From Olivibacter domesticus (GTDB lineage: Bacteria; Bacteroidota; Bacteroidia; Sphingobacteriales; Sphingobacteriaceae): a stretch of 64,000 nucleotides of DNA. The position numbers and the translations under genes are program-made. The first letter of the stretch is position 1; each line of letters starts with the position of its first letter. This document shows, piece by piece, positions 47,349 to 53,544 of the stretch. The stretch lies in assembly GCF_900109575.1 (NCBI RefSeq), contig NZ_FOAF01000001.1, positions 372,001 to 436,000 on the forward strand. Direction: 5' to 3'. Below the pieces are notes generated by a model that worked only from the letters and a program-made list of their open reading frames with translations, ran no database searches and was not told where the DNA came from.

Positions 47349-48497
47349 ATGAAAAACTTTAAGACATTATGTATCCATCCGTTTGATAATAATCAGCGTG
47401 ATGAAAATGCAGCCACTGTAGCTGTTCATCCAACAACAGCTTATAACTATTTGGACCAGGAAGAGCTGCAATATCCGGGCTTTTATTCTACTTATAATCA
47501 GAAAAGGCTTGCAAAAATAATTGCTAAGCTGGAGGAAGGGAATTGGGGGTTGGCATTTAGTTCCGGAATGGCTGCGATCAGCACGGCAATCCTATCAATG
47601 GTAAAACAGCACGAACATGTCATTTTTTCGAGGGACTTATATGGCGGTACTTGGCGATTTGCCGAAGAAGAGCTTCCAAAAAGGACCATCTCTTTTGATT
47701 ATGCGAATAATTCATTTGATAGTTTTAAAGAGCTGATAAGGCCGAATACTAAACTGATTTATTTGGAGACTCCTTCAAATCCTTTATTGCGCCTTGTTCC
47801 ATTAAAAGAGATTGCAGCTTTTGCACGTAAACATGGGATCATAACGGTTGTTGATAATACTTTTTCTTCACCGATTAATCAACGGCCACTATCATTGGGT
47901 ATAGATATCGTGGTACACAGTGGCACCAAATATCTTGGCGGTCACAATGATCTCCCTTATGGAGCATTGGCCTCTGGAAATGATACACTTGAAGCTTCTG
48001 TGCTGTCTACTGCTAAAATGTACGGTGGGTCTTTATCTCCTTATCAATGCTACCTTGCTGAACGCAGCCTGAAAACACTCGCCATCCGTATTCAGCAACA
48101 GAATCAGAATGCATTGAAAATTGCGGAATATTTGAATGGTCACACACTCGTTGATCAAGTGTATTATCCTGGACTTACCTCACATCATGACCATCAACTT
48201 GCGTTGGACCAAATGGACGGTTTTGGTGGCATGCTGTCTTTCGAACTTAACATGGAGGCAGATAGGATTTATAAATTCTTAAAAAGTCTTTCGCTCATTC
48301 GCCCGGCTTTAAGTTTAGGTGGAGTAGAGAGTCTCATCTGCTCACCGGCTGAAACCTCGCATAAATCGATGTTAGCGCGTGATCGGTTGGAGCTTGGTAT
48401 TAAGGATAACCTATTAAGACTGTCGGTGGGCATTGAAGATCAGCATGATTTAATTGCCGATCTAAAACTTGCGATGTCCCAAGCTGTGGCGGATTGA
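47349..48497 (+). CDS. PLP-dependent Cys/Met metabolism enzyme (cystathionine gamma-synthase/lyase-like)
   Basis: Cytoplasmic PLP enzyme of 382 residues from the ATG at 47349. The family motifs are intact: AFSSGMAAISTAILSM, RDLYGGTWRFAEEE, YLETPSNPLLRL, VVDNTFSSPINQRPLSLGID and HSGTKYLGGHNDLPYG, where K194 is the Schiff-base lysine. The C-terminal SLGGVESLICSPAETSHKSM block is typical of cystathionine gamma-synthase, cystathionine gamma-lyase and methionine gamma-lyase; sequence alone does not separate these. It is a single gene; its 3' end overlaps the convergent CHAT gene by 36 bases. Confidence 0.88.
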   Translation: MKNFKTLCIHPFDNNQRDENAATVAVHPTTAYNYLDQEELQYPGFYSTYNQKRLAKIIAKLEEGNWGLAFSSGMAAISTAILSMVKQHEHVIFSRDLYGGTWRFAEEELPKRTISFDYANNSFDSFKELIRPNTKLIYLETPSNPLLRLVPLKEIAAFARKHGIITVVDNTFSSPINQRPLSLGIDIVVHSGTKYLGGHNDLPYGALASGNDTLEASVLSTAKMYGGSLSPYQCYLAERSLKTLAIRIQQQNQNALKIAEYLNGHTLVDQVYYPGLTSHHDHQLALDQMDGFGGMLSFELNMEADRIYKFLKSLSLIRPALSLGGVESLICSPAETSHKSMLARDRLELGIKDNLLRLSVGIEDQHDLIADLKLAMSQAVAD

Positions 48498-51185
48498 GCG
48501 CAGAGCGAACCAAATTCCTCCTAATAGCAGAAAAATGGCAGCAGTATAAAGGAACCATCTATTATTGTGTGGTTCTTCAGGCAAAGCATTACTAGATCCT
48601 AATAAGATAATACCTGCCCAAGCATTAGGAAGCAAGCTGCTCCGATCGGCTTTGCGAAGCCATTCTTGTTGCGTTTTTTGCAGGGCAATATCTAATGGTA
48701 TTTGTTTACTGGCCTTGCTTAGGATTTTATGGGAAAAGATATAGGCGTCTTGATCATTTATATCCCACAGCGTGCTGAAAATGCTTGGTACACCAGTGCC
48801 CATGAAACCTCGGGATAGACTAAACACGCCTTCGCCTTTATAGGCTTTGCCTATGCCGGTGCGGCAGGCGGAAAGCATGAGTAACTGTGTTCGTACTTGT
48901 TGTTGACTAATATCTTTCAACGACAAACTGCTATCAGCCAAGTAAATGGCTGGTTCGGCAGACTTTTGGTCGGCATAAGCATGACTGATCAATTGTACCA
49001 CTTTAGCCTGTGGCCATTGGTTTTCAAAACTTGATTTCCTTGCTTCTTCATTAGTTAAAAGCGAAGTAGAGTAAAACAATTTCCGATTGGCGTTTAAGGC
49101 ATTTTCCGATGTAGACAAGCTGGCTAAGCTGCTTTTATAGGGGAAATGTACCGGTGCAACACCCAAAAAGTAAATACCCTCATTTTTTGCGGAGGACCGC
49201 CCCGAATTATTTATTAGGACCCTTGCCGAATAGGTATAGCTGAACGCATAGTGATTTACCAAATAGTCCGCTTGCTTTGCAGAAACACTTAATGCTGCAA
49301 AAGGAATAATGGCATTGCTAGTAGCAATAATTACGCGGGATGTTAAATAGGGTTTAAGTGGCGCAAATAATAATTGATAAAAGTAGTTAGAGATTTTTAG
49401 ATATTCAGGGTATTGCTGATTAAGCAAGTGCCTATCACTAAGGAAAGCTGTCAACTGCTGCCCCTGTTTATTATATACATCAAGATCAATCTTTTTTAAC
49501 AAACTAGTCTTTGGATTAATAACAAGGACATAAACACCATTCTTGCCCTCGTAATAGGAAAGCAAGCTCTGTTGGCCTCGTGCCAAATACGCTCGTACGA
49601 CTGAAAGTTTTGGTACGTGATTATTATACCTATATTCATAATAACGAGGATAACGTTGTTCTAAACTCTTTACGTATTCGTCCAATGTTGCCTGCGCTTG
49701 GAGAAAATCGTTGAGGCGCTCGTTTGTTTCTTCACTATTTTGATAGTAACTTACTTGCATGCGCAATGCAGCTTCCTTTTCGGCTTCTTCTTTCGACAAG
49801 AAGCTCTTTGCAGCATTACTGTTGAGTTGATCGAGCAGCAAAACTGCCCGGCTTTTTTCTAAAAAGTAAAAAGCCTTTTCAAGATCATTTAAATGAAAAC
49901 AGGTTTCAATGGCCCGCTCATACAAGCTGTTTAATTTTTCTCTCCAAAATAGTTTTGTGCCCATACCTTGATGCTGCCAGCGGATATAGTCTACTAAGGT
50001 GTCGAGTAGGAGATAAGTGTTTAGGGCGTAATCTAGATGTATTTTATTGTTTTTATCTAAGGATAGTATTTCCGCTTTATCTAAAAGAGGGGTAAAAGCA
50101 TAGTCTTTTTGGGATAAATTTTTAAGTTGTTGTGCCGTTGGATTTTTAAAAGAATCTGTAGGGTTAAACACTATAGGAAGTAAAATTATTGCCTGTTGCA
50201 GATATTCTTGTGCCTTTACAAACTGTCTTAATTTTTTACATTGGGAAGCCTTTATATTCTGCAACCTGGACAGCGCATATTGATCACGATTATATGTTAA
50301 AGCTAATTGCTCAAAGCGTTGGGCATTTACTTTGTCATTTAGTAATCCCGAAGTGTAATACAAATCAACATATATTGGTCCAAGCTCGGCATAGTATTCC
50401 GTTTTTTTATAAAGTTTCGCTGCTTTCAAAAAATATAATAGTGCAGTATTATAACGTTGTTTTTTAATATTTATATCGCCAACTAATTTATAGTAAATGC
50501 CTTTTTCATAATCGGTGGCGTATGATTTAGCTAAATCTAGTAGCTTAGGTAATTTTAACTCTACCTCTCTTACGCTATCCAAAGCGTTTAGATTAATGCA
50601 CTCCTCGTAAATGTTTTTAGTTAAATTAATGGAATCACCTGCTTGTTTAGCGATGCGTATACCATTTAACGCATATTCTAATCCTCTTTTGTAATCTTGG
50701 CTCTCATAGTATAAATGTGCCAGCGCTTGACATGCCAGCGCCGGAATTCCCCATTTATTAGGTTGCTCTAATCCCAATCTGTACGCTTGGTCATAATGCT
50801 TAATAGCCAACTCGAAATGGCCTTGTCGAGCTTTATAATATCCCAGATAAAAATGATATTTTGATAAGTAAGATACGGGTGTTCCTTTTGGATACCTAAC
50901 ACTGATCACAATGGCTTCCTCTAATAAAGAGACAGCTTGTTTGGTATTATTAGTAGCAAATAATGCTCCTGCATATAAAAAGAGCAAATTTGTGTAAGTG
51001 GTATCGTTCGTTATTTTTTGTTGAATACATTTGTTTTTAAGTTTTTCAAAACCAGCTACTTGATCTTTATAAGGTAAACTTACTAATTCATGAAAATGCT
51101 TCCAAACTTCTTGGTTAAAAGAAGTCTGGCATTTACTATGAAGAGTTACAGATAAGAATACCAAAATAAAGATCAGCCGGCGCAC
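48462..51185 (-). CDS. Exported TPR-CHAT protease-like protein with C-terminal membrane anchor
   Basis: Caspase-like CHAT protein of 907 residues. It has a signal peptide (about 1-19, ending SKCQ) and TPR-like helical repeats over about 55-460 (AISVRYPKGTPVSYLSKYHF, LAHLYYESQDYKRGLEYALN). The CHAT domain lies at about 590-870. The catalytic dyad is intact: H735 in LISHAYADQ and C774 in LLMLSACRTGIGKAYKGEGV. A hydrophobic helix at about 880-898 (WFLYTAAIFLLLGGIWFAL) and a basic tail (RKF) anchor it in the inner membrane, so the protease faces the periplasm. It is the last gene of an operon headed by a sigma factor and a single-TM TPR protein, hinting at regulated proteolysis of the sigma regulator. 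Confidence 0.88.
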   Translation of the reverse strand: MRRLIFILVFLSVTLHSKCQTSFNQEVWKHFHELVSLPYKDQVAGFEKLKNKCIQQKITNDTTYTNLLFLYAGALFATNNTKQAVSLLEEAIVISVRYPKGTPVSYLSKYHFYLGYYKARQGHFELAIKHYDQAYRLGLEQPNKWGIPALACQALAHLYYESQDYKRGLEYALNGIRIAKQAGDSINLTKNIYEECINLNALDSVREVELKLPKLLDLAKSYATDYEKGIYYKLVGDINIKKQRYNTALLYFLKAAKLYKKTEYYAELGPIYVDLYYTSGLLNDKVNAQRFEQLALTYNRDQYALSRLQNIKASQCKKLRQFVKAQEYLQQAIILLPIVFNPTDSFKNPTAQQLKNLSQKDYAFTPLLDKAEILSLDKNNKIHLDYALNTYLLLDTLVDYIRWQHQGMGTKLFWREKLNSLYERAIETCFHLNDLEKAFYFLEKSRAVLLLDQLNSNAAKSFLSKEEAEKEAALRMQVSYYQNSEETNERLNDFLQAQATLDEYVKSLEQRYPRYYEYRYNNHVPKLSVVRAYLARGQQSLLSYYEGKNGVYVLVINPKTSLLKKIDLDVYNKQGQQLTAFLSDRHLLNQQYPEYLKISNYFYQLLFAPLKPYLTSRVIIATSNAIIPFAALSVSAKQADYLVNHYAFSYTYSARVLINNSGRSSAKNEGIYFLGVAPVHFPYKSSLASLSTSENALNANRKLFYSTSLLTNEEARKSSFENQWPQAKVVQLISHAYADQKSAEPAIYLADSSLSLKDISQQQVRTQLLMLSACRTGIGKAYKGEGVFSLSRGFMGTGVPSIFSTLWDINDQDAYIFSHKILSKASKQIPLDIALQKTQQEWLRKADRSSLLPNAWAGIILLGSSNALPEEPHNNRWFLYTAAIFLLLGGIWFALRSIRHSLGHRKF

Positions 51186-51186
51186 T

Positions 51187-51576
51187 TTATCTATTTCTAA
51201 TAGTATCAGCTTTAAAGAGAACCAAATTTTTTAATCCGATTTGCTCAATAGTTATAGTGTTTTTGGATATAAAAACGGGATAAATGGGAGGAGGTGGCGG
51301 TGGAATGGGTCTGGAACCCATTGGCTTATTGGCAACTTCATCTTCTAATAAATGTGCCCCCGGAGCAGCAATTAAAAAAATATGTTTATTTTTATTCAAT
51401 TCTTTCACCTCCACAGTAGCGTTCAATGCCCTTTTTCCTAGCAGGTAATTTACTTGCGCCTTTACTTGTTTGGCAGTAATTGCTTCCGAATACTGAAAGA
51501 TGATCTGATCTTTAACCAGAAATTCGCTGTTTTTTCGGATTAAAGCATTTGGTAGCGTAGTTGTCAGGCTTTTCAT
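51187..51576 (-). CDS. Small polyproline protein of unknown function in the CHAT-sigma operon
   Basis: Hypothetical protein of 129 residues between the TPR protein and the CHAT gene, with one base between its stop codon and the CHAT start codon. No signal peptide or clear membrane segment; a short hydrophobic stretch KHIFLIAAPGAH is at about 64-75. A run RPIPPPPPPIYP lies at residues 89-100 and may link the N- and C-terminal parts. The first 60 residues look alpha/beta (IIFQYSEAITAKQVKAQVNY). It matches no family I recognise. Tight spacing suggests a stoichiometric partner, substrate or inhibitor of the CHAT protein. Whether it is exported is unknown. Confidence 0.7.
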   Translation of the reverse strand: MKSLTTTLPNALIRKNSEFLVKDQIIFQYSEAITAKQVKAQVNYLLGKRALNATVEVKELNKNKHIFLIAAPGAHLLEDEVANKPMGSRPIPPPPPPIYPVFISKNTITIEQIGLKNLVLFKADTIRNR

Positions 51577-51601
51577 AATTTAGGATTTAAGGTTATATTC
51601 T

Positions 51602-52318
51602 TTATTGCAATAATTTCAAGGCTTCTTGTTTTCCTTCCAGATTCTTTTCGATTACCTCATTTAACAGTTTTTTGGCTGCTTCTTGATCGCCCGGTTGATC
51701 GCGCAACAAATAGGTAATCGCTTTGTAGTATTTCCCCGGATTACTATAAAGCTGTGTTTTTGCAGCTAATTGCTGAAAATAGGGTAAGGCTTCATCATAT
51801 TTTTGAAGCTGTAACTGTGCTAAACCAACCACTTTTAGCGCTTCAGCATCCGAAGGGTGCTGAATAAGGTAAATGACGGCTGAAGCAATCGATTCCTTGT
51901 ATTTTTGCTGATTATAATTCTGTATTGCTCCCTGTAAAGATTGCTCTTCATCGCTCAAATGTAGGGGCAGTTCTTTTAGATTGTTGGCCAAGTAGTTTTC
52001 AGCGCGTACGGATAAATCTTTCTGAAAGGAGTTATTGAAATAGAATATGGAAAGGATAATCAGTAATACCGCTGCAGCGATCCCTATCCAACTGTTTCGC
52101 GACAAAGTTTTAGATGAATCCTTAGTAAGGGCGCTCCATTGTTGATGTTTCTTCTTTAATAAATCCTCATGGGCTGCTCGTTGTGCCGCCACACGTGCCT
52201 GTAGGTAAAAAGCGGTGTCGTCCGCTAAATCCGTATTAGCCGCCAAATCGGACTCAAACTGTTGCTTTTCTGCTCCCGTCAGTTTGGTATTGAAGTAGTG
52301 TTCAATCCGCTCTTCCAT
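51602..52318 (-). CDS. Single-TM TPR protein in the anti-sigma position
   Basis: Protein of 238 residues. The first 70 residues (MEERIEHYFNTKLTGAEKQQ, ending in SSKTLSRNS) resemble the cytosolic part of Bacteroidota anti-sigma-like proteins, which start with a short acidic helix and the L[T/S]xxE pattern. A transmembrane helix spans about 77-94 (WIGIAAAVLLIILSIFYF). The remaining 140 residues carry TPR-like helices (EALKVVGLAQLQLQKYDEAL, FQQLAAKTQLYSNPGKYYKA) and should be periplasmic. Its start overlaps the end of the sigma gene by 17 bases, so translation is coupled. Role as the sigma factor's membrane tether is inferred from position and topology; it lacks a recognisable zinc-binding anti-sigma motif. 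Confidence 0.78.
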   Translation of the reverse strand: MEERIEHYFNTKLTGAEKQQFESDLAANTDLADDTAFYLQARVAAQRAAHEDLLKKKHQQWSALTKDSSKTLSRNSWIGIAAAVLLIILSIFYFNNSFQKDLSVRAENYLANNLKELPLHLSDEEQSLQGAIQNYNQQKYKESIASAVIYLIQHPSDAEALKVVGLAQLQLQKYDEALPYFQQLAAKTQLYSNPGKYYKAITYLLRDQPGDQEAAKKLLNEVIEKNLEGKQEALKLLQ

Positions 52319-52928
52319 TTGTCGTTATTGTTAAGTCCTTAACTGTTTGATACGACTTCTTTAGCTTTTCCAGGCAACGAAGCCGGGATGTCTTCGCTAC
52401 GGCTGCCGACTGATAGCCTAGCTCTATAGCAATTTCCTTATCATGATAACCGTCTCCCCATGCCGATATAATCTGCCGGCAACGATCATCCATCAATTGA
52501 ATTCTCCTTTTTAGTGCAGCGACTTCATATTTTTCACACAATTGACGTATCGTGTCCTGTTGTCGATCTGGTAACAATTCCAAGTAATGATCTAGCTCTT
52601 CTTGGTTTCCTGTTCTTTTTTTATTTGCTTGTATTGCCCTCAAACTGTCAATACATTTATTTCGATAGATATTGTAAACATATGTTTTTAAAGAACTCCG
52701 TTGTTCAAATGTGCCTGCATATATATGTTTGATGGTTGCCAGTATTGTGTCTGAATAGGCCATAGCCGCTTCATCTTCCTGTAGTTTATGCTTCCACACA
52801 GCCTCTTTTATCAAATAACGGAATTTCAAATAAAGCTTATTTTCCCAAACTTGCCGCTGTGGATAGCCTTGTTGAATGCCTGTTATAAGATCTTCATCGG
52901 TTGCTTGTTTAGCAAATGTAAGCCACAT
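52302..52928 (-). CDS. Sigma-70 family RNA polymerase sigma factor (ECF-type)
   Basis: Sigma factor of 208 residues. Region 2 covers about 20-85 (YLIKEAVWKHKLQEDEAAMA, FEQRSSLKTYVYNIYRNKCI), with the SLKTYVYNIYRNKCID core. Region 4 covers about 130-195 (RQIISAWGDGYHDKEIAIEL, SAAVAKTSRLRCLEKLKK). The linker of about 45 residues lacks region 3, as in ECF factors. It is the first gene of the operon that ends with the CHAT protein. It probably transcribes its own operon and other targets when released; no promoter motif for it could be recognised upstream. It overlaps the next gene by 17 bases. Confidence 0.9.
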   Translation of the reverse strand: MWLTFAKQATDEDLITGIQQGYPQRQVWENKLYLKFRYLIKEAVWKHKLQEDEAAMAYSDTILATIKHIYAGTFEQRSSLKTYVYNIYRNKCIDSLRAIQANKKRTGNQEELDHYLELLPDRQQDTIRQLCEKYEVAALKRRIQLMDDRCRQIISAWGDGYHDKEIAIELGYQSAAVAKTSRLRCLEKLKKSYQTVKDLTITTNGRAD

Positions 52929-53199: not shown

Positions 53200-53544
53200 T
53201 TAAATGACATGGGTCATTTCCTCACAGGCCTCAGCGCATTTTCGGCAGGCCTCAGCACATTCGCGGCAGTGTTCCATGCCCATTACGGCGTGTTTTTCAC
53301 ATTCTTCGGCGCAGGCTATACAAATTTCAGCGCAGATCTTACATAGTTCCTCGCTGTAATTACTTCTTAAGCTCATAACTTCTGCTGCTGAGCGGCAGAT
53401 GGCCGCGCATTCCAAATCTAGTTGAATACACCTTTTAAGATGACCAATTTCTTCCTCATTTAAACATGAAATAGCACAATGACTGCACGTCACTGCACAG
53501 GCATTACAGGCCTCGATGCAGTGTTGATAATGTTGGCGTAACAT
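53200..53544 (-). CDS. Cys-rich four-helix copper-storage-like protein (DUF326)
   Basis: Protein of 114 residues with at least 17 cysteines arranged on amphipathic helices (CIEACNACAVTCSHCAISC, LDLECAAICRSAAEV, LCKICAEICIACAEECEKHA, HCRECAEACRKCAEACEEM). The CxxxCxxC spacing on four helices matches DUF326 and the copper storage protein (Csp) fold, which binds many Cu(I) ions inside a helical bundle. No signal peptide, so it is probably cytosolic like Csp3. It stands alone between the sigma operon and the GH2 PUL, with no copper pump or sensor nearby. Metal identity is inferred from family. Confidence 0.88.
   Translation of the reverse strand: MLRQHYQHCIEACNACAVTCSHCAISCLNEEEIGHLKRCIQLDLECAAICRSAAEVMSLRSNYSEELCKICAEICIACAEECEKHAVMGMEHCRECAEACRKCAEACEEMTHVI

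Follow-up and report, generated by a model that had tools for sequence, protein, structure and literature searches.

In Bacteroidota, a family of caspase-like CHAT proteins, periplasmic and anchored in the inner membrane, probably acts as a set of site-1 proteases dedicated to TPR anti-sigma factors, and their specificity would follow a readable code (Glu696 and Asp811 in the protease going with Arg in the substrate, a non-acidic residue 696 with Met or Leu, and Met or Val696 combined with Glu811 with Lys) that would have been switched in at least four lineages. This proposal arises from the window, i.e. a stretch of 64,000 nucleotides from Olivibacter domesticus, in which an ECF-type sigma factor, a TPR protein with a single transmembrane (TM) helix, a small polyproline protein and an exported TPR-CHAT protein are encoded side by side. 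Since the pocket of the protease and the cutting site of the TPR protein have changed together in several separate lineages, the CHAT protein very probably cuts the TPR protein that would hold the sigma factor.

Genetic organisation of the window locus

The four open reading frames lie on the minus strand within 48462-52928, as do all the features of the operon given below, with the limits assigned to them in a preliminary description of this DNA; the four-gene group, the 17-base overlap between the sigma and TPR genes, the His735/Cys774 dyad, the export signal and the C-terminal anchor claimed there were all recovered. The sigma factor (52302..52928) is a divergent member of the ECF type, as TIGR02937 is matched over residues 31-191 (E 2e-10), regions 2 and 4 being spanned, with 40.5 bits, just below the cut-off of 42.9. 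The one-TM TPR protein (51602..52318), the likely anti-sigma factor and proposed CHAT substrate, is matched by TPR families and was modelled as three N-terminal helices followed by a TM helix and TPRs (mean pLDDT 90.6). Its N-terminal domain (residues 1-72, 52103..52318), predicted to be cytoplasmic, belongs to a kind common to neighbours of sigma factors; the TM helix was located by hydropathy at about residues 76-95 (52034..52093), within a model helix covering residues 74-113, and the proposed cut site, Leu121-Ser122 (51953..51958), falls at a conserved position of the presumably periplasmic linker that covaries with CHAT residue 696.

The exported TPR-CHAT protein (48462..51185, 907 aa, GTG start), here proposed as the site-1 protease, is matched by the Pfam CHAT family (PF12770) over residues 602-864 (E 1.8e-34, 119.9 bits against a curated cut-off of 24) and by TPR families over its N-terminal part. 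It starts with a stretch resembling a signal peptide in sequence (about residues 1-20, 51126..51185) and ends with a hydrophobic helix, identified by hydropathy as a membrane anchor (about residues 875-895, 48501..48563), and a basic tail. The catalytic His735 (48981..48983) and Cys774 (48864..48866) were assigned from the sequence and from the alignment of relatives. Covariation points to residue 696 (49098..49100), an Ala in the window and a Glu in Arg-type relatives, as part of the proposed S1 pocket, and comparison of relatives to Asp811 (48753..48755) as a proposed second S1 acid. This protein is the sole CHAT match in the O. domesticus genome, and no Cas family was listed in a Pfam search restricted to the four operon genes and one neighbour. 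Upstream of the operon and on the same strand, a cysteine-rich DUF326 protein is encoded at 53200-53544, which we take to be possibly a copper-binding four-helix protein.

Distribution and gene-order variants

The CHAT protein was matched in 79 of the 301 genomes searched in the family, that of O. domesticus included. Besides, a locus set was assembled from 40 CHAT neighbourhoods, 42 named loci (from a pattern-limited scan of species genomes) and the window, which left 79 loci once 4 duplicates had been removed; it includes Sphingobacterium, Pedobacter, Spirosoma, Runella, Cyclobacterium, Maribacter, Zobellia, Kriegella and Saprospiraceae. Within 9 kb of CHAT, a sigma factor is present in 67/79 loci, a TPR protein in 69/79 and both in 66/79. 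The association exceeds chance, considering these 66/79 loci against a genome (6.78 Mb for O. domesticus) with 71 Sigma70_r2 matches and in which only 2 of the 11 matches of the TPR-protein profile are full-length. When sampling started from the TPR protein instead, a CHAT protein was found inside the fetched stretch at 25/40 loci. Among 40 control CHATs, which are the best scorers of a phylum sample and no random draw, 14/40 neighbourhoods contain a sigma match and 8/40 both sigma and TPR; a sigma factor or TPR protein is near in 6/8 of the controls with a C-terminal TM helix vs. 5/32 of those without (P 0.003). Regarding the CHAT relatives themselves, His735 and Cys774 are intact in all 78 aligned proteins (locus L094, with a split CHAT frame in which the catalytic residues are not covered, is outside this count), a C-terminal TM helix is present in 76/79 and an N-terminal hydrophobic stretch in 72/79. 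The proteolytic switch conceived in the preliminary description was to be abandoned if the genes did not co-occur in other genomes or if orthologues lost the dyad; it withstood the former test with 66/79 loci, and the latter loss was not seen in 78/78 relatives.

A four-gene order conserved across Bacteroidota was confirmed only in part, as the three-gene association is wide (66/79) but, of the other loci examined, only that of Sphingobacterium endophyticum repeats the exact order sigma-TPR-small-CHAT, named here architecture A, and the four-gene order was rejected as a conserved unit. In architecture B, encountered in many Cytophagales, Pedobacter, Flavobacteriaceae and some Saprospiraceae, the locus comprises a sigma factor, a TPR protein, a subtilase and CHAT. 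In architecture C, sigma-TPR is divergent from a lipoprotein, an outer-membrane-like protein (DUF7619/DUF7849) and CHAT, and in architecture D, lipoprotein-CHAT faces sigma-TPR-lipoprotein. A subtilase is encoded at most 9 kb from CHAT in 38/79 loci; judged by eye, these subtilases have an N-terminal domain, the triad can be recognised in most of them and many are lipoprotein-like, whereas no signal peptide was seen in those of Pedobacter.

The small polyproline protein of the window (51187..51576, 129 aa) is probably, on sequence grounds, a subtilase that has lost its catalytic domain, with a remnant prodomain and a polyproline tail, because it stands at the place where relatives have the subtilase and resembles the subtilase N-terminal domain in profile. 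Together with its S. endophyticum relative, it gives the best non-subtilase matches of that profile (E 0.028 and 0.01), the next unrelated match having E 0.8, and hhalign returned P 3e-4 with a probability of 39%. An earlier comparison with two and three sequences only had given P 0.015, and a profile still holding the lipoprotein signal peptides E 0.027 among noise. No subtilase (S8) catalytic domain was found in the protein by Pfam search or alignment. Its model is poor (pLDDT 58.7), with weak and unspecific fold matches of alpha/beta, RRM/ferredoxin-like type. A role as protease target is unsupported, place and profile fitting a subtilase prodomain, and the polyproline protein, once counted in the core of the switch, is more probably a leftover that is replaced in other loci.

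The TPR protein as a likely anti-sigma factor

A profile of residues 1-72 of the TPR protein gave 84 matches at E <=0.1 after removal of duplicates, 77 of which have a same-strand sigma match within 200 bp; outside the TPR family, this holds for 12/14 matches. As exceptions, the proteins of L135 and the second copy of L070 lie away from a sigma gene and that of L050 at 265 bp from it, the remaining ones having no sigma match in the stretch or one just above threshold (L148). It is likely that the TPR protein is an anti-sigma factor holding the sigma factor via residues 1-72, although this binding is inferred only from profile matches with sigma neighbours. The preliminary description had seen in it a tether for the sigma factor, a view that is supported here with the correction that the tether itself is the likely anti-sigma factor. 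Fold comparison matched the TPR half alone and listed no known anti-sigma fold, which excludes nothing.

Elsewhere in the O. domesticus genome (L155 6443-8110, i.e. G000:C10 about 896.9-898.6 kb), a sigma gene is followed by a gene for an anti-sigma-like domain, a TM helix and a trypsin-like domain (Trypsin_2, E 1.5e-25), the N-terminal domain, one of the above profile matches, being of the same kind as in the TPR protein; it is considered a cis version of a protease-linked anti-sigma factor. A second TPR anti-sigma-like protein of this genome (L154 7060-7791, contig C9), with no CHAT or sigma gene adjoining, has Glu-Gly at the position of the proposed cut site, and its linker resembles those of genus relatives without CHAT match (G015, G052 and G063).

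Covariation of the linker site and the CHAT pocket

The linker between the TM helix and the first TPR is variable, Leu121 of the window and the next residue standing out among its few conserved positions. At a distance of about 25 aa from the membrane, the residue is Arg, Met/Leu or Lys, and the one after it mostly Gly, Ser, Asp or Ala (G 64, S 20, D 9 and A 7 in 109 rows). R predominates at TPR position 121 (44 of 63 loci), followed by M (14), L (4) and S (1), so that the Leu that would be P1 in the window represents a minority state. When CHAT-domain columns were ranked by their difference in acidity between R and M/L loci, position 696 came first and 811 next: residue 696 is Glu in 44/44 R loci and Ser, Ala or Val in 17/18 M/L loci, and residue 811 is Asp in 44/44 of the former vs. 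9/18 of the latter. The sole M/L locus with Glu696, L070, has two TPR copies, the other of which carries Arg. By normalised mutual information, with and without correction, the pair 121/696 ranks first out of 84,802 column pairs.

The rule was then confronted with loci not used for its discovery. Among 46 new pairs, 33 combine R with E, 12 combine a non-R residue with the absence of E, and a single one, L231, is discordant, with R but without E (Fisher 3e-10); a further 9 pairs all agree (R with E in 3, M without E in 6), this third set having been judged by eye and the second one aligned. Overall, the correspondence between R and Glu696 holds in 117/118 pairs, L070 having been relabelled by, and counted with, its first TPR copy. 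Of these 118 rows, L096 and L204 are not meaningful, since in the former the TPR match is no anti-sigma protein and in the latter the CHAT frame is cut by the end of the stretch or contig; L074 and L087 are outside the TPR alignment and hence outside the pair counts. Because of a one-position shift of the column, seven non-R rows were reassigned to the Met type, which leaves the R/non-R division unaffected.

A tree was computed from 105 CHAT domains after masking of columns 696 and 811; the R and E labels are concordant in all its leaves, and parsimony places five changes on it, each common to both labels. L214, of a non-R lineage, keeps an acidic Asp at 696, and counting it as an acid leaves four in-step switches. 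Some of the nodes separating the switches are weak (support 0.11-0.64), and the tree excludes the discordant L231 as well as L096, L199 and L204, the CHAT frame of L199, like that of L204, being cut by the end of a stretch or contig. This joint switching of pocket and linker residues supports the suggestion of a periplasmic cut made by CHAT in the TPR tether, even though cleavage itself has not been demonstrated.

In L164 and L170, Lys occupies the proposed P1 position and Met or Val696 is combined with Glu811 in CHAT, which by sequence would make a possible Lys-specific pair. Three genomes (G735, G493 and G566) have 39, 29 and 17 CHAT matches, respectively, along with several TPR anti-sigma proteins each, and provide a rich set for pair specificity within one cell.

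Regarding TPR proteins without CHAT, a locus-level control was negative: R, M, L or K is present at the column in 13/16 TPR proteins without CHAT in the stretch vs. 17/25 with it (P 0.48). This control is not clean since all 13 lie in genomes with 2-39 CHATs. In genomes without any CHAT match, the site is gone in G015, G052 and G063, which belong to one genus, and, by comparison with relatives, in G461; G724, G558 and G375 are ambiguous by eye, and the longer linkers of G506, G628, G588, G640 and G656 were left unjudged. No such site was recognised in the TPR proteins of L250 and L251, though their genomes carry CHAT elsewhere.

Comparison with characterised S1 pockets

The CHAT-domain profile matches PDB chains 8d9f and 7x8a, named CHAT domain protein, with E about 1e-8. 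These chains are presumably type III-E proteins. In the profile alignment, these CRISPR TPR-CHAT chains show a gap and a Ser at positions 696 and 811, both acids being missing. A PDB search with the window CHAT domain alone gave E 0.73 at best, with separase among the matches. In the other CHATs of the phylum that were aligned, Glu696 and Asp811 are kept in 36/36.

As far as the accessible text of the sources goes, P1-Arg is held by an acid of helix alpha-1 in gingipain R (Asp163) and MALT1 (Asp365), and by Glu917 in a separase model, with a second acid provided by Glu500 in MALT1 and Asp1082 in separase (PMC4626109, PMC4357240). CHAT residue 696 sits 39 residues before His735 and residue 811 in an LWxxxD stretch. 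From this order along the chain, without any structure, it is proposed that 696 and 811 may correspond to the P1-Arg-holding acids of gingipain R, MALT1 and separase. For Desulfonema ishimotonii Csx29, the available part of the report describes a cut of Csx30 between residues 427 and 429 that is stopped by deletion of Met427, and no single alanine change that abolishes cleavage (PMC10028731), so that Met at P1 is not strictly required there. Acid-free chains on the one hand and Met427 of Csx30 on the other indicate that an acid-free pocket beside a Met site occurs in a tested system, with the caveat that the CRISPR chains aligned may come from species other than the one assayed.

Promoter motifs and putative sigma regulon

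Motif searches (40 restarts on real and 12 on shuffled sequences, with 4 shuffles each) recovered GGGGTAAC-N14-TGATAT upstream of 20/23 type C CHAT operons (log-likelihood 255 vs. 44-55 for shuffled sequences) and GGTTACA-N14-TTTACTAA in 14/15 type D upstream regions (137 vs. 42-47), the latter being those of the sigma gene and of both lipoprotein genes, one of which leads the CHAT operon. Only a weak motif was obtained for architecture B, and no convincing one for architecture A (in a set of 19, log-likelihood 66 vs. 41-47 shuffled, carried by Pedobacter sequences). All these scores are inflated because the sequences are related. The motifs suggest that the sigma factor may drive CHAT in both C and D, and in D its own gene as well; with an ECF-like promoter before the CHAT operon in two architectures, the sigma factor probably drives CHAT in a feed-forward loop. 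In the type D loci L043, L066, L069 and L071, only 10-12 bases separate a -10-like motif from the start codon of the sigma gene, and the sigma mRNA may then be nearly leaderless.

Proposed mechanism and alternative explanations

In the mechanism considered most plausible, in which topology and order of steps are inferred, the module would be a transmembrane signalling switch. The N-terminal domain of the TPR protein, on the cytoplasmic side, would retain the ECF sigma factor at the inner membrane, in which the TPR-CHAT protein would also be anchored, its TPRs and protease domain facing the periplasm. Upon an envelope signal, which is inferred and unknown in nature, CHAT would make a cut in the TPR protein at a distance of about 25 residues from the membrane, after Leu121 in the window by inference from relatives. 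The stump would then presumably be degraded, one M50 (RseP-type) protease being encoded in the O. domesticus genome, and the sigma factor freed, which in turn would probably drive the CHAT operon in a feed-forward loop. That CHAT is the site-1 protease of the TPR anti-sigma factor is held with good, though not full, confidence, cleavage remaining an inference.

Whether the linker is cut or merely docks in the pocket as a pseudosubstrate cannot be told from covariation alone, and the main rival, improbable but deserving attention, is an inhibitory docking of the linker, which would keep the protease off or CHAT and anti-sigma factor together, CHAT cutting something else, e.g. the subtilase, a lipoprotein or a target of the sigma regulon. 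Such docking predicts the same covariation, and the genes between TPR protein and CHAT indeed vary and often encode envelope proteins. The small residue that follows the site in most of the 109 rows is nonetheless cut-site-like, and its distance of about 25 aa from the membrane is as for a site-1 cut, neither of which amounts to proof.

The joint change of linker residue and CHAT pocket is left unexplained if CHAT is only an output, i.e. an effector of the sigma regulon, and another protease, e.g. of HtrA type, controls the anti-sigma factor; this explanation is deemed very unlikely, notwithstanding the ECF-like promoters upstream of CHAT operons in architectures C and D, the occurrence of TPR anti-sigma proteins without CHAT in the stretch (15/40 loci) or in the genome, and the anti-sigma-like domain fused to a trypsin-like domain in O. 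domesticus itself. Least credible of all, and given next to no weight, is that the four genes are merely neighbours without common function. Gene order does differ between architectures, and control CHATs of the phylum are often without sigma factor (sigma match in 14/40), but the presence of sigma factor and TPR protein near this kind of CHAT in 66/79 loci, and of CHAT in the stretch at 25/40 TPR-protein loci, already makes such a coincidence unlikely.

Implications and known systems

If cleavage of the TPR anti-sigma factor by CHAT holds true, a site-1 protease would be provided for many sigma/anti-sigma pairs of Bacteroidota, as well as a function and a predicted substrate site for a large group of uncharacterised TPR-CHAT proteins, and caspase-fold proteases, beyond their presence in CRISPR and cell-death systems, would have a place in transmembrane signalling. 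The wiring of type III-E CRISPR would then follow an ordinary principle of envelope signalling, from which the CRISPR version may have branched off into the cytosol. Thanks to the Arg/Glu696 rule, the idea is open to direct testing, with one residue to be considered in the protease and one in the substrate.

Protease-controlled anti-sigma switches are already known in kind, and what would be new here is the periplasmic CHAT version. Also known is a type III-B system in which SAVED-CHAT occurs together with a caspase and a sigma factor. Among the matches listed in the openly licensed literature on CHAT with sigma or anti-sigma factors, a periplasmic CHAT/anti-sigma module is not named; these matches concern CRISPR systems and, in the accessible part of one article, a remark on ECF54 (PMC8999054). 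Like the system proposed here, the type III-E CASP (Csx29, Csx30 and CASP-sigma) is described, in the available portion of the source, as combining a CHAT protease and an inhibitor that binds an ECF-like sigma factor and is relieved by cleavage (PMC10028731), but Csx29 is activated by Cas7-11 with target RNA. The type III-E TPR-CHAT chains are without both S1 acids, as are in part the M/L-type CHATs (no Glu696, Asp811 partly missing), whereas the window CHAT has a signal peptide and a membrane anchor and its proposed substrate is a one-TM TPR protein. With RseA/DegS/RseP (sigma E) are shared a one-TM anti-sigma factor with a cytoplasmic domain, a near-membrane periplasmic site-1 cut, here only proposed, and an M50 protease; unlike the HtrA-type serine site-1 protease of that system, the one proposed here is a caspase-like CHAT, and the periplasmic part is made of TPRs. 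CalpL/CalpT/CalpS likewise has a dedicated protease, whose target is an anti-sigma factor in complex with an ECF sigma factor (PMC11417357), but it is a Lon-SAVED protease activated by cA4, with no CHAT domain. As for ECF54 sigma factors, a subtilase and a CHAT protein are conserved in their genetic context and proteolytic control has been proposed, the accessible text discussing them as acting without an anti-sigma factor (PMC8999054), whereas the window locus encodes a membrane anti-sigma candidate.
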